Assembly: GCA_024404505.1 (NCBI GenBank)
Contig: JAKSPU010000018.1
Location: forward strand, 1-32,878
Reading direction: 5' to 3'
Length of the DNA stretch: 32,878 nucleotides
Origin: Clostridia bacterium
GTDB taxonomy: Bacteria > Bacillota > Clostridia > Oscillospirales > CAG-272
A model generated the notes under the pieces. The model searched no databases and was not told the DNA's origin. It saw only the letters and a list, made by a program, of their open reading frames with translations. Of this stretch, positions 5,610-15,608 are shown piece by piece. The position numbers were made by a program, and so were the translations under genes. Every line of letters begins with the position of its first letter. Positions within the stretch are counted from its first letter, which is position 1.

Positions 5610-8294
5610 ATGGCAGCTTCATCATCCCGCCGACTTGTGGTCGGCATCGTCGCCCACGTGGACGCGGGTAAGACCACGCTCTCCGAGGGGATGCTGTACC
5701 TGTCGGGCCGCACACGCCGGCTCGGCCGGGTGGATCACCGTGACACCTTCCTTGACACCAACCCGATGGAGCGGGAGCGCGGCATCACGATCTTTTCCAA
5801 GCAGGCACGCCTGACCATCCCCGTGGAGGGCAGGGAACCGCTGGACGTCGTGCTGATGGATACCCCCGGGCATACCGATTTTTCCGCCGAGACCGAGCGC
5901 ATCCTGTCGGTGCTGGACTATGCGATCCTCGTGGTCAGCGGCACCGACGGTATTCAGAATCATACGCTGACGCTGTGGCGGCTGCTGGAGGCATACCGTG
6001 TGCCCACCTTCCTGTTCGTCAACAAGATGGACCAGCCCACGGCGGGCGCACAGGGCCTTTGCATGGATATGCGCCGCAAGCTGTCCGACAGGATCCTGCC
6101 GTTCTATCCCGACGATACCGACGACGCACGGAACGAGCGCATAGCTGCCGCCTCGGAGGATCTGATGGAGGGCTACTTTGAGACGGGGGAGGTCGACCTG
6201 ACCGCGGCGGCCCGCCATATCGTCGACCGGGAGCTGTTTCCCTGCTTTTTCGGCTCGGCACTCCGGCTGGAGGGCGTAGCCGAGCTCATGACGTACTTGT
6301 CTGCTCTTACGCTGTCGCCTGTTTACGGGCCGGACTTCGGGGGCAAGGTCTGCAAGATCGCCCGCGATCCCGCCGGGATACGCCTCTCCTACCTCAAGGT
6401 CACGGGAGGGCGCTTGTCCGTCCGCGACGAGCTGACCTACACCGGCACGGACGGCAGCCGGATCACCGAGAAGATCGCCCAGCTGCGGCTGTACAGCGGG
6501 GATAAATTCGAGCAGGTGGACAGCGTGGAGGCGGGCGACGTCTGCGCGGCGGCGGGCCTGTCCGGGACGTGGGCAGGCCTCGGCCTCGGCGCGGAGCCGG
6601 ACAACGGTACGCCGCTCCTTGAACCCGTGCTGTCCTATCGGCTGACGCTGCCGCCGGACGCCGATCCCCGCCTGATATATCCGAGACTGAAGGTATTGGA
6701 GGAGGAGGATCCCGCGTTGCATTTCACGTGGTCGGAGGAGCTATCCGAGATCCACGTGCGCCTGATGGGGAACGTGCAGACCGAGGTCCTGACACGCCTG
6801 ATCGGCGAGCGCCTTGGCGTGGACGTTATCGTGGAGGACGGGCGCATCCTGTACCGCGAAACCATCGCCTCACCGGTCGAGGGGGTCGGGCATTACGAGC
6901 CGCTGCGCCACTATGCCGAGGTCCACGTCGCTATCGAGCCGCTGCCGGCAGGGAGCGGCGTCGTGACGGCGGATGCCTGCCCGGACGCCGTGCTGGAAAA
7001 GAATTGGCGGCGGCTGATCATGGCCGGGCTGGCTTCCAAAACGCATCGCGGCATCCTCATGGGAGCGCCGCTGACAGACGTACGCATCACGCTGCTGTGC
7101 GGCCGCGCCAGCATCAAGCATACCGACGGCGGCGATTTCCGCGAGGCGGTCTGCCGTGCCGTCCGCCACGGACTCATGCAGGCCAGACCGATCCTGCTTG
7201 AGCCGTGGTATCGCTACCGCCTGACCGTACCCACCTCCGTTGTGGGACGCGCCATGACGGATATGCAGGCCCGTTTTGCGGACTTTACCGTATCGGAGGA
7301 TCCCGCCGACGGTGAGAATATGACCACGCTGTCCGGGCGCGTGCCCGTATCCGAGCTGCGCGACTATGCACGCGACGTGTCCGCCTACACGCACGGTACC
7401 GGCAGGCTTGTCTGCACGCCGGACGGCTATGCGCCGTGTCATGATACCGAAAAGGCTATGGCCGGGGTGACGTATGAGCCGGAGGCCGACGTGAGCAATC
7501 CCCCGCACTCCATCTTCTGCGCTCATGGGGCCGGATTCTTCGTCCCGTGGCAGGAAGTCACCCGCTATATGCACATGGACAGCGGCTGGAAGCCGCAAAC
7601 CACGGCAGCGGCCAATACGCTGTCCGTCACCGAGACGGCCGAAGCACGCGCATCTGCCGTGATCCCGTCCGTCCGGTCGGTCCGTAAAGCGTACACGCTG
7701 TCGGATGCGGAGATGGAGGCGATCATGCGCCGCACCTTCGGACCCGAAAAGCGCCGCGACTACCGGGAGCCTGTCATCCGGACGGCCGATCCGGCCAAGA
7801 AGCCGAAGGCTGTCAAGCCGCCGCCTCCGCCCCGCCCGCCGCACGTCATCATCGACGGTTACAACCTGATCTTCCAATGGGGGTACCTCTCCGGGCTGGC
7901 CAAGGACAATCTCGAGACCGCGCGGCAGACGCTGATGGACCTGATCGCCAATTACGCCGCCTTTACACGCACGCGGGTCACGCTGGTATTTGACGCCTAC
8001 ATGGTCACGCCCAATCTCGGTAAGACCGAAACGCGCGACGGCTTCACCGTGGTCTATACCGCGAAGAACCAGACCGCCGACGCCTATATCGAGCGGCTCG
8101 TCCATGAGCTGGGACCGGATTACCGCATCCGCGTCGTGACCTCGGACGAGCTCGTACAGGTATCCGCGCTGCACGCCGGAACGAGCCGGATGTCGTCACG
8201 CGAGTTTACCGAGGAGCTGGTCCGCACAGGGCAGGAGATCACCGGGTTTATCCGCAAGCTGGAGGAACAAAACGCAAAAGCAAAACGGGACTGA
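5610..8294 (+). CDS. TetM/TetO-like ribosome-protection GTPase fused to a C-terminal YacP/Rae1-type NYN domain
   Basis: An 894-residue protein. Residues 1 to about 640 follow EF-G/TetM: G1 AHVDAGKT (15-22), G2 RGIT (57-60), G3 DTPGH (84-88) and G4 NKMD (138-141), then domains II-V. The classical TetM family is about 640 residues long. After a proline-rich linker (about 735-743) comes a domain matching YacP/Rae1: IIDGYN (Asp749), LVFDAY, a TADAYIE block and VVTSDELVQ. Rae1 of Bacillus subtilis is known to cut mRNA in the ribosomal A site. TetM-like GTPases act at that same site. The fusion could therefore recognise stalled or drug-bound ribosomes and cleave the mRNA there; this is inference. 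The start at 5610 has AAGGAGG 8 bases upstream. It should not be called a tetracycline-resistance gene without testing. Confidence 0.85.
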   Translation: MAASSSRRLVVGIVAHVDAGKTTLSEGMLYLSGRTRRLGRVDHRDTFLDTNPMERERGITIFSKQARLTIPVEGREPLDVVLMDTPGHTDFSAETERILSVLDYAILVVSGTDGIQNHTLTLWRLLEAYRVPTFLFVNKMDQPTAGAQGLCMDMRRKLSDRILPFYPDDTDDARNERIAAASEDLMEGYFETGEVDLTAAARHIVDRELFPCFFGSALRLEGVAELMTYLSALTLSPVYGPDFGGKVCKIARDPAGIRLSYLKVTGGRLSVRDELTYTGTDGSRITEKIAQLRLYSGDKFEQVDSVEAGDVCAAAGLSGTWAGLGLGAEPDNGTPLLEPVLSYRLTLPPDADPRLIYPRLKVLEEEDPALHFTWSEELSEIHVRLMGNVQTEVLTRLIGERLGVDVIVEDGRILYRETIASPVEGVGHYEPLRHYAEVHVAIEPLPAGSGVVTADACPDAVLEKNWRRLIMAGLASKTHRGILMGAPLTDVRITLLCGRASIKHTDGGDFREAVCRAVRHGLMQARPILLEPWYRYRLTVPTSVVGRAMTDMQARFADFTVSEDPADGENMTTLSGRVPVSELRDYARDVSAYTHGTGRLVCTPDGYAPCHDTEKAMAGVTYEPEADVSNPPHSIFCAHGAGFFVPWQEVTRYMHMDSGWKPQTTAAANTLSVTETAEARASAVIPSVRSVRKAYTLSDAEMEAIMRRTFGPEKRRDYREPVIRTADPAKKPKAVKPPPPPRPPHVIIDGYNLIFQWGYLSGLAKDNLETARQTLMDLIANYAAFTRTRVTLVFDAYMVTPNLGKTETRDGFTVVYTAKNQTADAYIERLVHELGPDYRIRVVTSDELVQVSALHAGTSRMSSREFTEELVRTGQEITGFIRKLEEQNAKAKRD

Positions 8295-8313
8295 CGATGC
8301 AGTCCCGTTTTTT
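8282..8313. terminator. Bidirectional terminator between convergent genes
   Basis: Perfect 12-bp stem AAAACGGGACTG (8282-8293) / CAGTCCCGTTTT (8300-8311) with a 6-base loop. T-rich sequence follows on both strands. It overlaps the stop codon of the GTPase fusion and serves the minus-strand SGNH gene as well. Confidence 0.9.
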
Positions 8314-8351
8314 GCTTGGGTGACAGTTGACGCTCCCGGATGCCGCATACC

Positions 8352-9023
8352 TTACAGGCTCTTGAGGAAGCTCCCGAGGCAGGCTGCCATCAGCCGATGC
8401 CCGGCGGCGTTCGGATGCAGACCGTCCGGGCAGAGATCCTGCATATGGATGGGCAGATTGGGCTGGATGCCGGCCTTCGCGTGGAAATCGCACACGGGGA
8501 TGGAGTACCAATCCGCCACCTCGCGGATGATGTTGACGTAGGTCAGCAGGGTAGGGTGATCGACCACGGCACCGTCGGGCGAGACCTTGGTGTGCGGCTG
8601 ATCGTCGCCGAGGCAGTGCAGGGGCGTGACCACGACCAGCTGCGCGTGCGGGAAGGTCTCGTACAGCTTGGTGTACAGGCAGTGGCAGGCACCGTAGAAG
8701 GTGTCGGGCGTGCGGTCGGACATCTGACCGATCACGGCGTCCCCGTGACCGTAGTCGTTGGTGCCGCCGAAGACGACCACGACGTTGGCATCCTTGTCCA
8801 TACCGTCCACGCGGGAGGTATAGTACCGGTCAAAGCTGGGGGCGTAGGTCGTGGGATTGTGCTGGCGGGCAATGCGGGTCCCGCTGATGCCGTAGTTGTT
8901 GGCGGCCTTGAGACCGCAGGCCTCCTTCAGAACGTTGAGGTAGATATGCTCCGGGACGTCGACGCCCACGCCTTCCGTGATGCTGTCCCCGAGGAAATTG
9001 ATGATCTTGCCGGTAAGCTCCAT
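8352..9023 (-). CDS. SGNH/GDSL-family esterase
   Basis: A 223-residue, single-domain SGNH hydrolase. The catalytic blocks are complete: GDSITEG (Ser14), GISGTR (Gly47), GGTNDYGHG (Asn89) and DGLHPN (Asp200, His203). There is no signal peptide and no accessory domain, so a cytoplasmic carbohydrate or small-ester deacetylase is likely. The ATG at 9023 is the first codon of the conserved N-terminus and has AAGGA upstream. It is monocistronic: it has its own promoter at 9074-9102 and shares the bidirectional terminator. The acyl substrate is unknown. Three SGNH hydrolases in this window point to extensive handling of acetylated sugars. Confidence 0.85.
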   Translation of the reverse strand: MELTGKIINFLGDSITEGVGVDVPEHIYLNVLKEACGLKAANNYGISGTRIARQHNPTTYAPSFDRYYTSRVDGMDKDANVVVVFGGTNDYGHGDAVIGQMSDRTPDTFYGACHCLYTKLYETFPHAQLVVVTPLHCLGDDQPHTKVSPDGAVVDHPTLLTYVNIIREVADWYSIPVCDFHAKAGIQPNLPIHMQDLCPDGLHPNAAGHRLMAACLGSFLKSL

Positions 9024-9073
9024 AACGGACCGTCCTTCTCCCGCCGTCGGCGGGCATTTTGTTTGATGGACAC

Positions 9074-9102
9074 ATTATAGCACACCTGACGGGGCGTGTC
9101 AA
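9074..9102 (-). promoter_or_regulatory. Promoter of the SGNH esterase gene
   Basis: On the minus strand TTGACA (9097-9102), a 17-bp spacer and TATAAT (9074-9079) with extended -10 TGC: a near-consensus promoter. A perfect small hairpin (9040-9054, CCCGCCG/CGGCGGG) lies in the leader immediately upstream of the ribosome binding site. Confidence 0.85.
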
Positions 9103-9157
9103 GATTTCCCGCGGAGAGAAGTGCCCGCCGGACGGCGATTTCTGCCCCGTTTCGATG

Positions 9158-9204
9158 AAATAATCATTTATCTACTTGACGAATGAGAATTTTTATGATA
9201 TGAT
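9158..9204 (+). promoter_or_regulatory. Distal promoter of the RiPP exporter with a shared AT-rich box
   Basis: TTGACG (9176-9181), a 17-bp spacer and TATGAT (9199-9204). The 12-bp box AAATAATCATTT at 9158-9169 ends 6 bases before the -35. The identical box occurs 5 bases before the -35 of the precursor promoter (13054-13065). This suggests a common regulator or an UP-like element. Confidence 0.7.
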
Positions 9205-9501
9205 ATTATTGCAAAGCCTTATTATGAGATGGCTCTTATCTGATAAAGGCGATGCGGCGGCCGGCCGGACAAGGGTCGGGACGTCTGCGGCGGTCGGCGC
9301 CGGTTTCCGTCGGTGTGCATTGGCTCTGTCACGCTGCCCGAAGCCGCTTCCGGTCTCCCGGACGCTCCCGAAGGGCGTTCGTCAGCCGAGGCTCTTCTCT
9401 GCAAGGAGGAGGGCCTTTCCTTTTCGGAACGGCCCGACCGCTTTTTGACCGGCCGGTCAAAAGAAAACGGCTATTTCAACGGAATTTTGTCTGTACGACT
9501 A
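9205..9501 (+). other. Long non-coding leader between two promoters of the RiPP exporter
   Basis: About 290 bases of GC-rich sequence lie between the distal promoter and the proximal one, with several short inverted repeats and no convincing gene. It also contains the 20-bp palindrome at 9443-9462. It could be a structured leader or a small RNA. I did not recognise a known riboswitch or T-box, and no clear terminator is present. Confidence 0.4.
9443..9462. promoter_or_regulatory. Perfect 20-bp palindrome, candidate operator
   Basis: TTTTGACCGGCCGGTCAAAA reads the same on both strands and lies 40 bases upstream of the -35 of the proximal exporter promoter. No T-tract follows the stem, so it is not a usual terminator. 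It may bind a dimeric regulator, but no regulator gene is in the window. Confidence 0.5.
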
Positions 9502-9530
9502 TTGATTTTTTAATAGGAGTATGGTATAAT
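9502..9530 (+). promoter_or_regulatory. Proximal promoter of the RiPP exporter
   Basis: TTGATT (9502-9507), a 17-bp spacer and TATAAT (9525-9530) with extended -10 TGG. The predicted start near 9537 leaves about 80 bases to the ATG at 9616, which rules out the upstream in-frame ATG at 9535-9537 as the normal start. Confidence 0.75.
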
Positions 9531-9615
9531 TATAATGATATCGTATGGAAACCGGCGGATCGGGCTCCCTGAGGGGCTGCTTCGTCCGCGGTTCTTAAGA
9601 GAGGACAGGTACCCT

Positions 9616-11538
9616 ATGGGATATATTCGGGAAAAAATAAAAAAAATACCTCAATACCTGCGGGAATGGCGCTGGCTGTTCCGGTACATCCGCAAGTATT
9701 GGGTGAGCGTCATGGCGTACATACTGCTCGGCGTGATCGCCGTGCTGATGGGACTCGCCGTGTCTGTTGCCAGCAAGGTGCTGATCGATGCGGTCGTCAC
9801 GGTCAACAACGAAGGCCCGGTACAGACGGAGACCGTATCGGAGGATGCCGCGCCGGAAGATGAAGCTGCCGGGGAGACGGGTGAACAGAAGTCCGGCATC
9901 AACGCGGTAGCGGAGGCGCTGTTCTCGGGTATCGTGTCACCCCACGGGGAAGCAACGAGCCGCGGCGAGCGGGTCGTCCGGGCGATGTGTCTTGTCATCG
10001 GTCTTGCGCTCAGCCAGATCATCTTCAACGCCATTGCCTCGTGGATCACCGCCAACGTCAACACCAAGATCACCAATGAGATCCGCCACGAGATCTTCGA
10101 GCGGATCATGACCTCCCGCTGGGAGTCGCTGCGCGCCTACCATTCCGGTGAGATCCTGAACCGCCTCGAGGGAGACGTCAACGGCGTGGTGGATGGAATC
10201 GTTTCCTTCATCCCTACCCTCGTGACCTGCATCGTCCGGTTCGCCGGCGCGTTCATCATCATCATGCTGACGGATCCCCTCATGGCCGTGTTTGCGCTTG
10301 CATCCGCGCCCATCCTCGTGTTTACCGCCAAGCCGCTGATGAAGGTCATGCGTAAATTCAACGAGAAGCAGCGCGAGATCAACGGTCAGATCCTCTCCTT
10401 CAACGAGGAGGCGTTCCAGAATATCCAGCTCGTCAAGGCGTTCGACCTGACCAGACAGCGCTGCGAGGCGCTCGGCGTCCTGTTGAAGAATCACCGCAAG
10501 GTACAGCTGGACTATGCCAAGGTTTCCGTATGGGTCGGCGCGGCAATGAGCCTCATCGGCCTCATCACCGGGTATGCCTGCTACGGCTGGGCTGTGTACC
10601 GTCTGTATCAGGGACGGATCTCCTACGGTGACCTGACGCTGATCATGACGCTGTCCTCGCAGCTCCAGGGCTCCTTCAGCGCGCTGGTCGCCATGTTCCC
10701 CCGCGCCGTCAGCGTGGCCACGTCTGCCGGACGTGTCATGGAGATCACCGGCCTGCCCGCCGAGGAGGACAAGGACGCCGAGTCTGCCATAGCTATGGCA
10801 GGCAAGGTCGAGGAGTGCGGTATCGGCGTGGTCGCCGACCACATCAGCTTTGCCTATGAGGACAGCACCGATCCCGTGATGAAGAACGTCAGCTTCAGCG
10901 TACATCCGGGTGAGATCGTGGCGTTCGTCGGACCTTCCGGCGGCGGCAAGACCACCACGCTGCGCATCCTGCTCGGCCTTCTCAAGCCGCAGGAGGGTCA
11001 GCTGACCGTGTCTCTCGGCGACGGGTCCATGACCCTGCCCGTCAGCGACAGCACGCGCCGCCTGTGTGCCTATGTGCCGCAGGGCAACAGCGTGTTCTCC
11101 GGTACCATTGAAGAAAACCTGCTGGCGGTCGCGCCCGACGCGACAGCCGAACAGGTGGAACAGGCACTCCGCGTGGCCGACGCGTGGGAGTTCGTGTCCG
11201 GCCAGCCGAACGGTGTGAAAACCGTGCTGGGCGAGCGCGGTGTCAACCTATCCGAGGGTCAGCTGCAGCGTCTGGCGATCGCCCGCGCCGTGCTGCGCGA
11301 CGCGCCCATCCTGATCATGGACGAGGCCACGTCCGCGCTGGACGTGGATACCGAATCCCGCGTTCTGCACGCATTGATGAAGGCCAATCCCAGCCGCATC
11401 ATTCTGATCACCACGCACCGGGCAAGTATGCTGGACTACGCCGATCAGGTCATCCGTGTCGGCGAGGGGTGCTTTGAAATGAAGGAGCCGGTCAAAAAGA
11501 CGGAAGAGTCTGCGGCCGCTGCCCAAGAGTTGAACTGA
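9616..11538 (+). CDS. ABC exporter (fused transmembrane and ATPase domains) of the RiPP locus
   Basis: A 640-residue half-transporter. The membrane domain spans about 1-370. The ATPase domain has Walker A GPSGGGKT (439-446, Lys445), the Q-loop region YVPQGN, signature LSEGQ (545-549), Walker B LIMDEATSALD and the switch His in TTHRAS. There is no N-terminal C39 peptidase domain, so leader removal must be done elsewhere, presumably by the peptidase encoded at 14221. An acidic hydrophilic insert of about 60 residues lies between the first two membrane segments (about 62-120), which is unusual for this family. It is followed after 26 bases by the PqqD-like gene in what looks like one operon. It probably exports the mature peptide as a homodimer. 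Confidence 0.9.
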   Translation: MGYIREKIKKIPQYLREWRWLFRYIRKYWVSVMAYILLGVIAVLMGLAVSVASKVLIDAVVTVNNEGPVQTETVSEDAAPEDEAAGETGEQKSGINAVAEALFSGIVSPHGEATSRGERVVRAMCLVIGLALSQIIFNAIASWITANVNTKITNEIRHEIFERIMTSRWESLRAYHSGEILNRLEGDVNGVVDGIVSFIPTLVTCIVRFAGAFIIIMLTDPLMAVFALASAPILVFTAKPLMKVMRKFNEKQREINGQILSFNEEAFQNIQLVKAFDLTRQRCEALGVLLKNHRKVQLDYAKVSVWVGAAMSLIGLITGYACYGWAVYRLYQGRISYGDLTLIMTLSSQLQGSFSALVAMFPRAVSVATSAGRVMEITGLPAEEDKDAESAIAMAGKVEECGIGVVADHISFAYEDSTDPVMKNVSFSVHPGEIVAFVGPSGGGKTTTLRILLGLLKPQEGQLTVSLGDGSMTLPVSDSTRRLCAYVPQGNSVFSGTIEENLLAVAPDATAEQVEQALRVADAWEFVSGQPNGVKTVLGERGVNLSEGQLQRLAIARAVLRDAPILIMDEATSALDVDTESRVLHALMKANPSRIILITTHRASMLDYADQVIRVGEGCFEMKEPVKKTEESAAAAQELN

Positions 11539-11564
11539 TTATAATAATAGGAGGATATACAACT

Positions 11565-11840
11565 ATGACTATCAAGATCAAGGATGGATTCGTACTGAGA
11601 AAGATCGGTGCCAGCTACATGGCAGTTCCTTTCGGTGCCAGAGCCAACGAGGTGAAGGGCATGATCTCTTTGTCCGAGAGCGGATACCTGCTGTGGAAGG
11701 CGATCCAGGGCGGGACCGATACCGTGGAGGGCCTTGTTGAGGTGCTTCGCAAGGAATATGACGTGCCCGAGGAGATCGCTGACAGAGACATCAGAGCATT
11801 TCTGGATGGCCTGCTGCAGCAGGGGGTGCTTGCAGAATGA
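11565..11840 (+). CDS. PqqD-like RiPP recognition element protein
   Basis: A 91-residue protein with the PqqD fold pattern: three N-terminal strands (DGFVLRKIGASYMAVPF, then VKGMISLSESGYLLWKAI) and a helical C-terminus ending in FLDGLLQQGVL. Stand-alone proteins of this family bind the leader peptide and present the precursor to the radical SAM enzyme. TAGGAGG precedes the ATG by 9 bases. Its stop overlaps the start of the radical SAM gene by 4 bases, which fits tight co-expression and a stable complex. The likely ligand is the leader (residues 1 to about 25) of the precursor encoded at 13144. Confidence 0.9.
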   Translation: MTIKIKDGFVLRKIGASYMAVPFGARANEVKGMISLSESGYLLWKAIQGGTDTVEGLVEVLRKEYDVPEEIADRDIRAFLDGLLQQGVLAE

Positions 11841-12964
11841 ACGATTTCGAAGGCCTTAAGGGCCTCATGCCGGACTTCGAAATCAATCTGCTTTCTCTGC
11901 GTCAATCAGCCATTGAGGAGAGATTCCCGCTGTCGATGACGTGGGAGCTGACTCCGTACTGCAACTTCAGCTGCCCGATGTGCTACGTCCACCTGACACC
12001 CGAAATGGCCAGAAAGAAGGGCACCATGCTGACAGCCGATCAGTGGCTGGAGCTGGGCCGTCAGTTCTCCGAGATGGGGCTGCTTCTGGTCAACCTCACG
12101 GGCGGCGAGCCGCTGACCCGCCCGGACTTCTGGGAGATCTATGAGGGACTCTGCCGTATGGGCATCTTCGTGGCCGTGTTCACCAACGGTTACATAGTCG
12201 ACGAGAAGGTGGTGGAGCGTTTCAAGGAGATGCCGCCCCGCTTCGTCAAGGTGTCCGTGTACGGCGGATGCAACGAAACGTATGAAAAGATGTGCGGCGT
12301 CAAAAACGGCTTCACGAGGGTCTGCCACGCGCTGGATCTGCTGAAGGAGGCGGGTATCCCCATTTCCCTCACTTCGACGATCGTCAAGGAGAATCAGGAC
12401 GATCTGCCGCTGATCGTTCAGATGGCCAAAGAGAAGGACATCACGATCCAGACAACGGATACCGTGATGACGACCGCCCGCGGCGCCGCGTCCGATCCGG
12501 CCAATTCGCGGCTGGAGAACACACGTGTGCAGAAGATGACGCTGGAGGATCTGAAGAAATACCGGCACGAGCCCGTAGCCTCCATGCTGGAGGAATGCGG
12601 CTCCTACGGCCGCGCCGCGTCCATCACGTGGCACGGACACCTGCAGCTCTGCAACTTCTTCGAGCATGAGTACGTGCAGGTGAGTTCTCCGATCAACGCG
12701 GAGGAGCTGTGGAAGCAGTTCTTTGCCGTCACGGACGCTATCAGGAAGCCGCCCGAGTGCGCTGACTGCCCCGACGCGGAGTTCTGTCACGTATGTCCCG
12801 GTGCGCTGGCCTCTGCAAGCGGATATGCGGACCGTCTCTCTCCCGACGTGTGCGTCGATGCCGCGCTGGCGCACAAGCGGTATAACGAGCTGATGGCAGC
12901 AGAAGCTGCAGAAGCTGCAGAAGCTGCTGAATCCGCGGAAGACGCCGGGACATGCCGCGAATGA
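11837..12964 (+). CDS. Radical SAM/SPASM peptide maturase
   Basis: A 375-residue enzyme. The radical SAM cluster motif is Cys42-x3-Cys46-x2-Cys49 (CNFSCPMC), followed by the SAM-binding GGEPL block (about 95-99). The C-terminal SPASM region holds seven cysteines: 254, 272, 308, 311, 317, 320 and 339. That is enough for two auxiliary iron-sulfur clusters. Such enzymes make thioether, C-C or C-O cross-links, or epimerise residues, in RiPP precursors. The precursor here has a single Cys, so multiple thioethers (a classical sactipeptide) are unlikely. A cross-link on Trp/Phe residues is more plausible. The gene ends in an Ala/Glu tail encoded by 9-base GCAGAAGCT-type repeats (about 12894-12930). 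The start overlaps the PqqD-like gene. Confidence 0.9.
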   Translation: MNDFEGLKGLMPDFEINLLSLRQSAIEERFPLSMTWELTPYCNFSCPMCYVHLTPEMARKKGTMLTADQWLELGRQFSEMGLLLVNLTGGEPLTRPDFWEIYEGLCRMGIFVAVFTNGYIVDEKVVERFKEMPPRFVKVSVYGGCNETYEKMCGVKNGFTRVCHALDLLKEAGIPISLTSTIVKENQDDLPLIVQMAKEKDITIQTTDTVMTTARGAASDPANSRLENTRVQKMTLEDLKKYRHEPVASMLEECGSYGRAASITWHGHLQLCNFFEHEYVQVSSPINAEELWKQFFAVTDAIRKPPECADCPDAEFCHVCPGALASASGYADRLSPDVCVDAALAHKRYNELMAAEAAEAAEAAESAEDAGTCRE

Positions 12965-13053
12965 TGCCGGCGGCGGGATACTGTAGAAATTTGGCATATC
13001 CGTACAAAGCAAACCGGCGGGATCACCGCTAATATTGTACAAATTTTTTTGAA

Positions 13054-13099
13054 AAATAATCATTTTCCTCTTGACAGCATTGCTTAAATGTTGTATAAT
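13054..13099 (+). promoter_or_regulatory. Strong dedicated promoter of the precursor peptide gene with the shared box
   Basis: TTGACA (13071-13076), a 17-bp spacer and TATAAT (13094-13099) are both perfect consensus. The AAATAATCATTT box (13054-13065) and a T-tract lie just upstream and could act as an UP element or operator. The predicted start is near 13106, about 38 bases before the ATG. Confidence 0.9.
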
Positions 13100-13143
13100 A
13101 TGCGTACAGAGCCAAAAATAAATTGAAAGGAGTTCTTACTGCT

Positions 13144-13380
13144 ATGAAGAACTATGTTGCTCCTATCTCTGCTGTTCTGTCTATGAACCTCAACGAGAAC
13201 ATCGCTAAGTCTGAAGGTAACACCACCACCAACTGGGCATGGGATCCCGATTCCGGTCTCATCACCAACCAGGAGGGTCTGCCCAAGGCTACTTCCAACT
13301 CTTTCGCTATCCTCGCTTGGATCTCCGCTCACGGCGGTGATGCAACCCTGCTGAACGCTTGCGCTAAGGGTAACAAGTAA
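13144..13380 (+). CDS. RiPP precursor peptide
   Basis: A 78-residue peptide without a signal sequence. The N-terminus (MKNYVAPISAVLSMNLNENI) fits the common clostridial leader pattern of a KxY start, then a hydrophobic strand and an acidic 'NENI' turn. The remainder is rich in Asn, Thr, Ser, Gly and Ala, with aromatic residues at Trp31, Trp33, Phe54 and Trp59, and one Cys73. It uses GCT, TCT, GGT and AAC codons much more than its GC-rich neighbours, as highly expressed genes do. The ATG at 13144 has AAAGGAG 11 bases upstream; the in-frame TTG at 13123 lies ahead of that site and is rejected. It lies between the maturase and the kinase-like gene. The core boundary and the modification are unknown. 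Confidence 0.85.
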   Translation: MKNYVAPISAVLSMNLNENIAKSEGNTTTNWAWDPDSGLITNQEGLPKATSNSFAILAWISAHGGDATLLNACAKGNK

Positions 13381-14217
13381 TTGGTTCATATCCGCATGAA
13401 GGACGTAATGTTTCGGATTGCGGGCCAGAATGCAAGGATTGCAGGCGGCACTTTGTGCCGCCTGCTTTCCGGTTTTGAGGCTCCCGAATCCGAGAAAGAT
13501 CAACAACCCATTTGTACCATCGCCGAAGCGACAGGTACGGCTCAATTCGATATAATCAATCTGACACCCGATTTTCAGGTCCGTCACGTGCTCAGCACGG
13601 TCGAGGATCCGAGCGGTGTCGCGCTGGCTGACGAGGACTTCTCTCATATTTCCATTACTTTCGGTGAGAGCAAGGACGAAAGCCTGATGGAGCTGCTGCT
13701 GGCAGCGTTCTACTCCCGTCTGGTCGCCTTCCGGACCGTTCTGGTCCACGCGTCCGTCGTTGACGTGCCGGGCTTGGGCGGTGTGATGTTTGTGGGCCGG
13801 TCCGGTATCGGAAAGACCACGCAGGCCATGCTGTGGTCCATGTACCGGAACGCTGAGATCATCAACGGCGACAAGGTGTTCCTGTCCCTGAACGAGGCCG
13901 GTGACACCGTGACGGCGCACGGCAACCCGTGGAAGGGCTCTTCTCCGTATTGCCTGAACAAGAGCACGACGCTGAAAGGCATCGTGGTGCTGGATCAGGC
14001 CAAGACCAATACCATCCGTCAGTTGAACGATCTGGAAGTCCTGAACGAGTACGTCACGCATATATTCATGCCCATGTGGAACGGGCAGTCGACGGATCAG
14101 GTCATGGAGACGATCGGCGGTATGATGCCGCTGGTGCCCGTGTTCAAGCTCGCCTGCCGTCCCGAGCAGGAGGCTGTGGACATGACCTTCCGCGCGATCT
14201 TCGGCAGCGAGGTGTGA
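13381..14217 (+). CDS. HPr-kinase-like P-loop protein of the RiPP locus (ScmC/HprK-like)
   Basis: A 278-residue protein of the HPr kinase/PEP-carboxykinase-like P-loop group found in lasso-peptide and radical-SAM peptide clusters. Walker A is GRSGIGKTT (Lys145 if the TTG at 13381 is the start), followed by the downstream block IINGDKVFL and a Gly-rich HGNPWKGSS segment. The regulatory HPr-binding features of true HprK are not evident. It may phosphorylate or otherwise modify the peptide, as HprK-like enzymes do in some lasso peptides; this is inferred. The start is uncertain: TTG 13381 (AAGGG 10 bases upstream, directly after the precursor stop), ATG 13396, or ATG 13408 (AAGGA 4 bases upstream). 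A strong hairpin lies within the first 30 codons. Confidence 0.8.
   Translation: MVHIRMKDVMFRIAGQNARIAGGTLCRLLSGFEAPESEKDQQPICTIAEATGTAQFDIINLTPDFQVRHVLSTVEDPSGVALADEDFSHISITFGESKDESLMELLLAAFYSRLVAFRTVLVHASVVDVPGLGGVMFVGRSGIGKTTQAMLWSMYRNAEIINGDKVFLSLNEAGDTVTAHGNPWKGSSPYCLNKSTTLKGIVVLDQAKTNTIRQLNDLEVLNEYVTHIFMPMWNGQSTDQVMETIGGMMPLVPVFKLACRPEQEAVDMTFRAIFGSEV
13441..13476 (+). terminator. Intragenic attenuator hairpin downstream of the precursor gene
   Basis: A perfect 11-bp GC-rich stem, GCAGGCGGCAC (13441-13451) / GTGCCGCCTGC (13455-13465), has a TTT loop and is followed by TTTCCGGTTTT. It begins 60 bases after the precursor stop but lies inside the kinase-like frame. It would let most transcripts end after the precursor and so give excess precursor over enzymes, as is typical of RiPP loci. 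Confidence 0.55.
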
Positions 14218-14220
14218 TCT

Positions 14221-14736
14221 TTGGAACAATCAACGCAGACTCAGGAGGTCGATCGTTTCTCCATGCTCCGGATCATGAGCGGTATGCCGGATCAGACCGA
14301 GTTTTCGCTCAAGGTGACGGGCAGCAGCATGGTCCCGACCTTTCTTGACAAGCAGAGCATGGCGTGGCTCAAAAAGGACGCCGCCTATACGCCCCGCGCG
14401 GGCGACGTGGTTTTCTTCATCCGTGAGGATGGCGCTTTTGTGCTGCACCGGATCCTGAAGATCCGCAAGGACGGCAAGCTGGTGATGAACGGTGACGCCC
14501 AGACGTGGACCGAGGTCATCGACCCTGCCCAGATCATGGCACGCATGACGCACTATGTCCAGAAGCCCGGCGGCAAGGACCGCAGCGCAGACAGCTTCTA
14601 CTGCCGGAATTGGCAGTGGTGGTGGCGCAAGCTGCGTCCCATCCACGCGATCTGGGCCCGCCTCTACTACTATTGGCACCGCATACCCTACAAGCTGGGT
14701 ATCAAAAAGGATGTAATCGAAACCTCCGCAGAATGA
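14221..14736 (+). CDS. S26/SipW-type Ser-His peptidase, likely leader peptidase
   Basis: A 171-residue member of the S24/S26 serine peptidase fold. The nucleophile is Ser36 in TGSSMVPTF, the general base His76 in VLHRI, and the acid Asp92 (NGDAQ) or Asp101 (DPAQI). A His in place of the usual Lys marks the SipW/eukaryotic-type branch, and the Ser-His distance of 40 residues equals that recalled for SipW. There is no N-terminal membrane anchor, unlike true signal peptidases. The C-terminus (about 128-165) is Trp/Tyr/Arg-rich and could bind the membrane surface. As the exporter lacks a peptidase domain, this enzyme is the best candidate to cut the leader. The start codon is probably TTG, with GAGGTG upstream, 3 bases after the preceding stop; ATG at 14263 is a less likely alternative. 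Confidence 0.85.
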   Translation: MEQSTQTQEVDRFSMLRIMSGMPDQTEFSLKVTGSSMVPTFLDKQSMAWLKKDAAYTPRAGDVVFFIREDGAFVLHRILKIRKDGKLVMNGDAQTWTEVIDPAQIMARMTHYVQKPGGKDRSADSFYCRNWQWWWRKLRPIHAIWARLYYYWHRIPYKLGIKKDVIETSAE

Positions 14737-14753
14737 CTGCGGAGGTTTTTTGT
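14721..14753 (+). terminator. Terminator of the RiPP operon
   Basis: A perfect 10-bp stem, AACCTCCGCA (14721-14730) / TGCGGAGGTT (14738-14747), is followed by TTTTTG. It overlaps the peptidase stop codon and closes the locus. Confidence 0.9.
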
Positions 14754-14763
14754 TGTGGGAGAT

Positions 14764-14873
14764 GCGTGTGGGGCTCTGCCCCACGCCCCGGGACGCTTGC
14801 AGGGCTCTGCCCAGCACATTCTGAAGGGCAAGCCCTTCAGACGCTTAAACCCTTCTTGAAAGAAGGGTTTAAG
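14764..14873. repeat. Composite hairpin repeat, copy 2 (inverted relative to copy 1)
   Basis: It contains GTGGGGC/GCCCCAC (14768-14784), CTGAAGGGC/GCCCTTCAG (14821-14840) and the TTAAACCC hairpin (14844-14873). The first and last are the reverse complement of the block at 50-110; the middle part has no counterpart there. No gene is seen from 14737 to 14988. The rest of that gap (14874-14988) shows nothing recognisable. Confidence 0.8.
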
Positions 14874-14988
14874 GATCCCAAGAACTCTCATACAAGGTAA
14901 GAATTGATCTCGGAACGCTATCCGTCAGGGTGAGGGTGGAAGTGTATGAGGAGAGAAAGCGGTCAGTTGTGACGTCAGAACGGCAAGC

Positions 14989-15534
14989 CTACCTTTTAAT
15001 TATCCCGAGTTCCTTTTCCAGCGTGGCAGCATCCACCACCCGGTAGTGCGGCGCGTATGCTTCACGGTATTCCGGGCTGTGCGATACGGGCGGCAGACCG
15101 GGGATCCGGAGGTATTCGTCAAGGTACGTGTCCAGCGCGGCGCGGTCAAACCGGAACGAACCGCTGTCCGCTGCTTCCCGCAGCAGGGAGAGGCTGTCCT
15201 CAAACGCTGCCCGCGTGCCTTTGATCAGCGGCGCGGACGCAATGAACACGGCTGCCAGCCGGTCCGGCGCAAGACCGTGTGCGTCCAGCGCGGACAGATG
15301 CACGCGGACGATACCGCGCGACCCTTGACCGGGGACCGCGATGACCTCGGCCAGCGGACCCGCCGTCTGCGGGACGGAAGCGTACTCGGCGTTCAGGTAC
15401 CGGCGGCAGGCTTCCTCGTCGCGGATCAGGTGTCCTCCGCCGAATACGGCCTGATAGACCAGCTTGACGGCGTCGGTCGGCTGCATGGCCGGATAGGCAG
15501 CCGCGTGCGCGGCGATGACGGCGGATGTGATCAT
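14989..15534 (-). CDS. Conserved protein of unknown function
   Basis: A 181-residue soluble protein. It resembles an unnamed clostridial family recognised by a block like DAVKLVYQAVFGGGHLI near residue 22-38 and a later RVHL block. I cannot assign an enzyme activity. The two conserved His (in GGGHL and VRVHL) could be catalytic or metal-binding. AGGAGG lies 8 bases before the ATG at 15534, and the gene has its own promoter (15609-15637). It is divergent from the acyltransferase gene and no partner is obvious. There is no signal peptide or membrane segment. Confidence 0.75.
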   Translation of the reverse strand: MITSAVIAAHAAAYPAMQPTDAVKLVYQAVFGGGHLIRDEEACRRYLNAEYASVPQTAGPLAEVIAVPGQGSRGIVRVHLSALDAHGLAPDRLAAVFIASAPLIKGTRAAFEDSLSLLREAADSGSFRFDRAALDTYLDEYLRIPGLPPVSHSPEYREAYAPHYRVVDAATLEKELGIIKR

Positions 15535-15608
15535 GTCCGGTACCTCCTGATGTTCTGATCATGGAAATGTGAGCATGGGGCCGCATCGGTACGGCCTCCG
15601 ATACCCGG

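Follow-up and report, generated by a model that had tools for sequence, protein, structure and literature searches.

The locus described here occupies positions 9158-14753 of a 32,878-nucleotide stretch of DNA from a Clostridia bacterium (contig JAKSPU010000018.1); this whole stretch is referred to as the window. Its genes resemble those of pathways for ribosomally synthesized and post-translationally modified peptides (RiPPs). Six genes lie on the plus strand in a single direction, with a terminator-like stem-loop at their end, and encode, in this order, an MsbA-like exporter, a PqqD-family RiPP recognition element (RRE), a radical S-adenosylmethionine (SAM) enzyme of the SPASM type, a 78-residue precursor, an HprK-like kinase and a SipW-like peptidase (Table 1). 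Inside this cassette the radical SAM gene overlaps the RRE gene by 4 bases. The original prediction for the locus had named these genes in this order, together with the terminator and a short precursor with one Cys, and all of them were found, the single Cys being Cys73. Its picture of a compact RiPP locus free of lasso and lanthipeptide enzymes also agrees with the cassette proteins, none of which is such an enzyme.

The class of the pathway had been called unassigned. This is now too strong, since the linear polyphosphorylated peptide (LPP) pathway, as set out in PMC13381572 (May 2026), has the same precursor, HprK-like, RRE, SipW-like and MsbA-like set, that is, the cassette minus its radical SAM enzyme. 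The lpp cluster of Paenibacillus alginolyticus encodes a precursor, the HprK-like LppK, the RRE LppB, the SipW-like LppS, the MsbA-like LppD and the nucleoside triphosphate (NTP) transferase LppN. Experiments reported there showed that LppK phosphorylates Ser3 of the core and that LppS and LppB together remove the leader; several phosphates on one Ser near the core N-terminus characterise the class (PMC13381572).

Table 1. Genes and regulatory sites of the cassette (positions in the window)
Feature	Position	Strand	Matches and residues
AT-rich box AATAATCATTT, then promoter-like TTGACG-17-TATGAT (at 9176)	9159..9204	+	
Promoter-like TTGATT-17-TATAAT upstream of the exporter	9502..9530	+	
MsbA-like ABC exporter, LppD-like	9616..11538	+	ABC_membrane E 2.9e-37, ABC_tran E 8.6e-29
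Discrete PqqD-family RRE, LppB/B1-like	11565..11840	+	PqqD E 2.2e-16
Radical SAM/SPASM maturase	11837..12964	+	E 7.3e-28
Perfect sigma-70-type consensus promoter TTGACA-17-TATAAT of the precursor	13071..13099	+	
Precursor, 78 residues, ATG at 13144	13144..13380	+	predicted leader 1-21 (Y4xxP7, E18-N-I-A21), core 22-78 (Ser23, Cys73)
HprK-like kinase, LppK-like	13381..14217	+	Hpr_kinase_C E 8.7e-5; H123, P-loop K145, D164
SipW/ER-type signal-peptidase-like leader peptidase, LppS-like	14221..14736	+	putative Ser/His/Asp S36, H76, D92
Intrinsic terminator-like stem-loop with T tail	14719..14749	+	

The putative functional residues of the encoded proteins are well preserved among their relatives. 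In the RRE, D75, F79 and Y65 were invariant in 8 of 8 aligned sequences and fell on D70, F74 and Y60 at the Tyr pocket of LppB (the LppB numbering was fitted, as the chain number minus 18). The radical SAM enzyme carries a CX3CX2C motif and seven more Cys in a SPASM-type layout, all invariant in the 6 aligned homologues. Its best match in the PDB was SkfB; the named radical SAM families of NCBIfam scored far under their cut-offs, StsB, SkfB and AlbA being among the weak matches. The putative catalytic residues H123, K145 and D164 of the kinase, whose start codon is uncertain (TTG at 13381), were invariant in 36 of 36 aligned sequences, and HprK (1ko7) was the first, weak match of the kinase profile (E 0.001). 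In the case of the peptidase, S36, H76 and D92 were invariant in all 18 aligned sequences (the N-termini of L070, L072, L078 and L084 having been extended to upstream starts) and correspond to S29, H68 and D93 of LppS, whose mutation in each case stops cleavage (PMC13381572). The peptidase profile retrieved the ER-type signal peptidases SEC11A/C first (E 3e-6), and no transmembrane segment was seen in the protein by eye. For the exporter, an ATG at 9535 is also in open frame and the start at 9616 was preferred on inspection; MsbA-type models were its top two NCBIfam matches, both under their cut-offs.

Related cassettes were collected by a kinase search of 58 genomes and a radical SAM search of 196 genomes of the family, which gave four cassettes from the same genus, and by using the radical SAM alignment to scan species genomes, which gave 273 relatives; the best 80 of these 273, representing 79 loci, were kept. 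The closest named relatives are metagenome-assembled genomes of uncultured Clostridia and Oscillospiraceae, several of them from ruminant and deer gut. In a tree of the 80 radical SAM proteins the window falls in a clade of eight (support 100/99), in which RRE, kinase and exporter accompany the enzyme in 8 of 8 cases and the peptidase in 7, the eighth contig ending after the kinase. The names L067 and L047, L068 and L049, L069 and L048, and L071 and L050 each refer to one contig, which was counted once. A ninth cassette, L198, was found through a peptidase search and has the same order; the best 8 matches of its radical SAM protein among the 80 are the eight members of the clade. Nine related cassettes, the window included, thus share the gene order, and since the cassette recurs in relatives, its composition is beyond chance. 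Directly 3' of the peptidase a PF14907 nucleotidyltransferase gene follows in L069, L070, L072, L073 and L198 (5 of 9); none was found near the L067 cassette, and the L068 and L071 contigs end too early to judge. In L073 a Wzz/AAA capsule-type gene lies beside the exporter.

The precursor genes, one or two per cassette, are flanked by the radical SAM gene on one side and the kinase gene on the other; the precursor of the window has one match in its own genome. The leaders of the 12 precursors from the nine cassettes align without gaps, and counted from the last leader Ala (replaced by Ser in one of the 12) the Tyr at -17, the Pro at -14 and the Glu at -3 are invariant. The Ser at +2, Ser23 in the window, is also invariant (12/12) and is flanked by positions of high entropy; the motif that anchored the alignment includes this Ser, all 12 precursors matched it with equal Tyr-to-Ala spacing, and no row was lost. 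Ser23 is likely to be the phosphate site. The phosphorylation that the original prediction had thought possible thereby gains support. The placement of Ser23 resembles that of the LPPs of Bacilli, with a Ser soon after the cut, and not that of paeninodin, with its C-terminal Ser. A C-terminal Ser was present in only 2 of the 12 precursors of the clade vs 15 of 17 in sister group B and 16 of 16 in sister group D (where the L141 row had been shortened by trimming), and the motif E[NS][IV][AS]xS was present in 0 of the 33 precursors of groups B and D.

The core of the window's precursor contains three Trp, one Phe and the single Cys of the protein. As a control for the Cys, the peptidase profile was run against 394 genomes of the order and matched in 137. 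Sixty-three control loci were read (60 high-scoring ones and three others); 10 with a peptidase and neither RRE nor kinase were left out, and 53 had the peptidase together with an RRE or a kinase. In 47 of these 53 LPP-like loci no radical SAM match was found within the searched distance, and 36 of the 47 have both RRE and kinase. By eye, one precursor each was chosen from the open reading frames (ORFs) of 12 loci counted as radical-SAM-less. Eleven of these loci belong to the 47; the twelfth is L231, which has a weak radical SAM match (31 bits) some 5 kb away from its peptidase and was counted as lacking the enzyme. The remaining ORFs listed were not considered precursors, and none was recognised in the other 36 of the 47. 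A Cys in the last 12 residues was present in 10 of 12 precursors of the clade vs 1 of 12 from the radical-SAM-less loci (Fisher p 6e-4, relatedness ignored; 1 of 11 without L231). The L167 precursor is only 32 residues long, and its Cys at residue 21 thus falls within the last 12. When Cys after residue 22 were counted, the values were 11/12 and 0/12, and among the first 11 clade precursors 9 had a C-terminal Cys vs a mean of 2.4 and a maximum of 7 in 2000 shuffles. Since the Cys count differs with and without the radical SAM gene, the Cys goes with the enzyme, and Cys73 is the likely radical SAM target.

Sister group C (34 loci among L085-L142, e.g. L118:9552-14013), from gut Lachnospiraceae and others, has a PqqD protein, a radical SAM enzyme, a precursor of 96-151 residues, an HprK-like kinase and usually an exporter; a SipW-like peptidase was detected in none of its loci. 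Its precursors, picked from the ORFs for 33 of the 34 loci (none in L127), have no YxxP and carry a C-terminal Cys, which lies within the last 12 residues in 33 of 33; exactly one Cys is present in 28 of 33, and the argument of the original prediction that the window's precursor has too few Cys for a sactipeptide is therefore a poor one. The L118 precursor, the only one of group C tested, matched no Pfam or NCBIfam family. Group D (L052, L053, L109, L133, L135, L136 and L144) contains HprK, radical SAM and mostly PqqD proteins, and its precursors have YxKP leaders, several Cys, often as CYH or CYN, and a C-terminal Ser; a protein of 1500-2500 residues adjoins in some. Among the Coriobacteriia loci (L081-L084 and L096), some have multiple radical SAM genes and multiple short precursors that contain Cys and mostly end in Ser, with one set of kinase, peptidase and exporter nearby.

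The gene content, the invariant putative catalytic residues, the conserved leader, the invariant Ser and the association of the C-terminal Cys with the radical SAM gene are computed results. We consider it probable, from sequence and from analogy with LPP, that the locus encodes an LPP-type RiPP pathway bearing a radical SAM enzyme, with Ser23 as the phosphate site and Cys73 as the radical SAM target. The enzymatic steps and the product that we infer are as follows. The precursor would be strongly expressed from its own promoter, and the PqqD-family RRE would bind the leader at Y4xxP7 and at the alternating hydrophobic stretch that follows, presenting the core to the enzymes. The HprK-like kinase would then phosphorylate Ser23, an isolated invariant Ser two residues past the last leader Ala. 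The radical SAM/SPASM enzyme would modify the core, with Cys73 as the most likely site and a Cys-to-carbon thioether as the likeliest of the known chemistries. Finally, the SipW-like peptidase would cleave after A21, possibly after I20, and the MsbA-like exporter would release the peptide.

Several results weigh against this reading. The kinase and the peptidase both stay under the curated Pfam thresholds (Hpr_kinase_C 22.6 bits vs a cut-off of 33.3, Peptidase_S24 21.7 vs 23.3), and at E 0.001 only 10 of 36 related kinases and 10 of 18 peptidases matched these families. With the window's RRE as a single query, LppB (9x8z) was the best match, whereas the profile of the clade ranked the lasso RREs TbiB1, TfuB1 and PbaB1 (E 6e-6 to 2e-5) before LppB (E 0.009); because the two rankings disagree, the RRE is lasso/LPP-like without a settled place. 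The LPP leader motif given in PMC13381572, YxxPxVLxHQxIxFETxxS, is matched in its YxxP and its Ser, but HQ and FET are missing from the window's leader; moreover, Tyr and Ser are 19 residues apart in the window vs 18 in LPP, and the distance from Pro to the cut is two residues longer if the cut falls after A21. The motif E[NS][IV][AS]xS was found in 0 of the 12 LPP-like precursors of the same order counted as radical-SAM-less, and the parallel drawn from Ser23 is therefore limited to the LPPs of Bacilli. No PF14907 match was obtained in the window's genome, which is 89% complete. Apart from the window and L198, the cassettes were selected through their radical SAM gene, and the Fisher, shuffle and Ser-motif comparisons take no account of relatedness. 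Within the last 12 residues, two of the clade's 12 precursors have no Cys, and one of these two is free of Cys altogether. Finally, of the 10 precursors that do have a Cys there, all but that of the window itself (9 of 10) have an aromatic residue at the first or second position behind it.

This last result speaks for a triceptide/streptide-like product, in which the radical SAM enzyme would join aromatic side chains (e.g. in NWAWDPD) and the kinase would be incidental, as in the Trp/Phe cross-links of the original prediction. The three Trp and one Phe of the core would suit such a product, and SPASM enzymes with PqqD partners do make C-C bonds, as PqqE does (PMC8326336). The aromatics after most C-terminal Cys led us to weight this alternative up and the LPP-type reading slightly down. 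However, over the first 13 core positions the 12 precursors share no conserved Trp or Phe, and the remaining core does not align, which leaves the cross-links weakly indicated at best; in the window no aromatic follows the Cys, and the low scores of the named radical SAM families count against it too. We regard it as unlikely. Since aromatics follow the Cys in 9 of 10 precursors, a mixed form is possible, in which the Cys is bonded to a nearby aromatic, an intermediate between this alternative and the Cys73 modification preferred above.

It appears quite improbable that the locus makes a sactipeptide or ranthipeptide and has a kinase in addition, in which case the thioether would define the class and the likeness to LPP would be shared tailoring. 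The C-terminal Cys is simply explained by a Cys-dependent SPASM enzyme, several Cys occur in the precursors of some sister groups, and the StsB, SkfB and AlbA matches, with SkfB first in the PDB, point the same way; but the RRE, the leader logic, the kinase and the leader peptidase are of the LPP/lasso kind, and the NCBIfam scores are far under the cut-offs. The alternative overlaps with the LPP-type pathway, the difference being mainly one of name. It is very improbable that the product is a plain LPP and that the radical SAM enzyme works on something other than the peptide or is an evolutionary passenger: the 47 of 53 LPP-like loci with no radical SAM gene nearby are presumably functional, but in the cassette this gene overlaps the RRE gene, its Cys motifs are intact in all 6 aligned homologues, and the Cys content of the precursors differs with its presence.

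For a wider proposal, we find the grounds evenly balanced. The window and its radical-SAM-bearing LPP-type pathway may belong to a large unnamed RiPP superclass of gut Bacillota and Coriobacteriia. In this superclass an HprK-like kinase and a radical SAM/SPASM enzyme would share a single lasso-type RRE, and the products would carry a phosphorylated Ser, in some perhaps then glycosylated, and a radical-made change at Cys. The phosphate site appears to shift by lineage: in the window's clade it would lie close behind the cleavage site, in groups B and D it would be the Ser at the C-terminus. There is a fair chance that the wider group merits its own name.

The regulatory sites of the cassette were also compared. 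Seven promoter-like sites were observed in the region vs 2.5 expected from shuffles. The hexamers of the precursor promoter and ACAGAGCCA in the 5' untranslated region are identical across the four aligned loci (the window, L067, L068 and L069), and TTGATT sites with TACAAT or TATAAT also precede the exporter in L067, L068 and L069. No such consensus promoter was found immediately upstream of the precursors of L070, L071 and L073 or of the second precursors of L068 and L069. The 11-mer AATAATCATTT occurs at 9159-9169 and 13055-13065, ending 6 and 5 bases 5' of the -35 elements of two cassette promoters, and AATAATCATTT followed by TTGAC at 4-8 bases occurs twice in the window's genome, both times within the cassette. 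In 12 upstream stretches of 6 related loci it gave a single match, with two mismatches, and a family-wide regulatory box was therefore dropped. Between the two promoter-like sites 5' of the exporter, about 300 bases (9205-9500) hold no convincing gene, and a leader RNA may be indicated by a stem-loop at 9388-9417; a known RNA element was rejected, as the Rfam scan of 8300-15600 gave 0 matches.

The codon adaptation index of the precursor is 0.73 vs 0.51-0.59 for the five cassette enzymes (the reference being 17 ORFs of a ribosomal-protein region, with values of 0.54-0.85 of their own). The high expression that had been claimed for the precursor is plausible from this value and from its perfect promoter, but the neighbouring gene for a GDSL-type esterase also reaches 0.70. 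The latter (8352-9023, minus strand) diverges from the cassette and has a perfect TG-extended promoter-like site at 9102-9074 on the minus strand. Further upstream, at 5610-8294 on the plus strand, lies an EF-G-family GTPase with a C-terminal YacP-like NYN domain (GTP_EFTU E 3.3e-44, NYN_YacP E 2.2e-42), a fusion that seems unusual.

Among known systems, the window shares an HprK-like kinase and a discrete RRE with the paeninodin-type lasso peptides, and some of its relatives share the nucleotidyltransferase as well. The phosphate site of paeninodin is a C-terminal Ser, and PadeK and PsmK/PsmN are described for phosphorylated lasso peptides (PMC9266682); the window's precursor has no such Ser, whereas those of groups B and D mostly have one. 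One earlier paper mentions HPr kinase in lasso clusters, and RRE-Finder (PMC7470986) places discrete lasso-type RREs beside radical SAM enzymes. A lasso peptide was rejected, since neither a macrolactam cyclase nor a B2 peptidase was found among the 11 proteins scanned (six from the cassette and five neighbours, to which the search was limited). The SynChlorMet cassette, which combines PqqD-like, kinase-like and radical SAM/SPASM proteins, resembles the window in this combination; it was rejected on its NCBIfam scores (score/cut-off: ScmC 11.2/125, ScmD 22.3/100, ScmE 81.4/400, ScmF 75.7/400). With sactipeptides and ranthipeptides the window has in common a SPASM radical SAM enzyme and a core Cys, but it differs in its discrete lasso-type RRE, its kinase, its SipW-like peptidase and its single Cys. 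No paper on a RiPP class with both an HprK-like kinase and a radical SAM enzyme was found among the papers that the searches covered, which included no supplements and lacked many subscription papers, so earlier sightings are possible. To our knowledge, HprK-type (poly)phosphorylation and radical SAM modification are not known together on one RiPP.

The closest likeness is to LPP as PMC13381572 describes it: a discrete RRE, a YxxP leader, an HprK-like kinase, a SipW-like peptidase with the same triad, an MsbA-like exporter and a Ser just after the cleavage site. A nucleotidyltransferase in 5 of 9 cassettes and the capsule-type gene at L073 extend it, a capsule-type neighbourhood being reported for LPPs. 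LPPs are linear and have no macrolactam cyclase; none was seen here among the 11 proteins scanned either, but the radical SAM enzyme may cross-link the product. The differences are the radical SAM/SPASM enzyme in the cassette, the C-terminal Cys of most precursors and the missing counterpart of LppN in the window; the terms 'radical SAM', 'rSAM' and 'SPASM' are absent from the main text of PMC13381572. Because of the missing NTP transferase, the divergent leader motif, the open place of the RRE and the additional radical SAM enzyme, the system is filed as LPP-like and not as LPP. If the reading is right, HprK-type (poly)phosphorylation and radical SAM chemistry would meet on one RiPP, guided by one small adaptor. 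LPP-like loci of the same order with and without the radical SAM gene form a natural experiment, their Cys content differing accordingly; since Cys content tracks this gene, the target of the enzyme can be predicted down to single mutable residues. The role of phosphorylated RiPPs, left open in PMC13381572, would thereby become testable in a second, common gut lineage.

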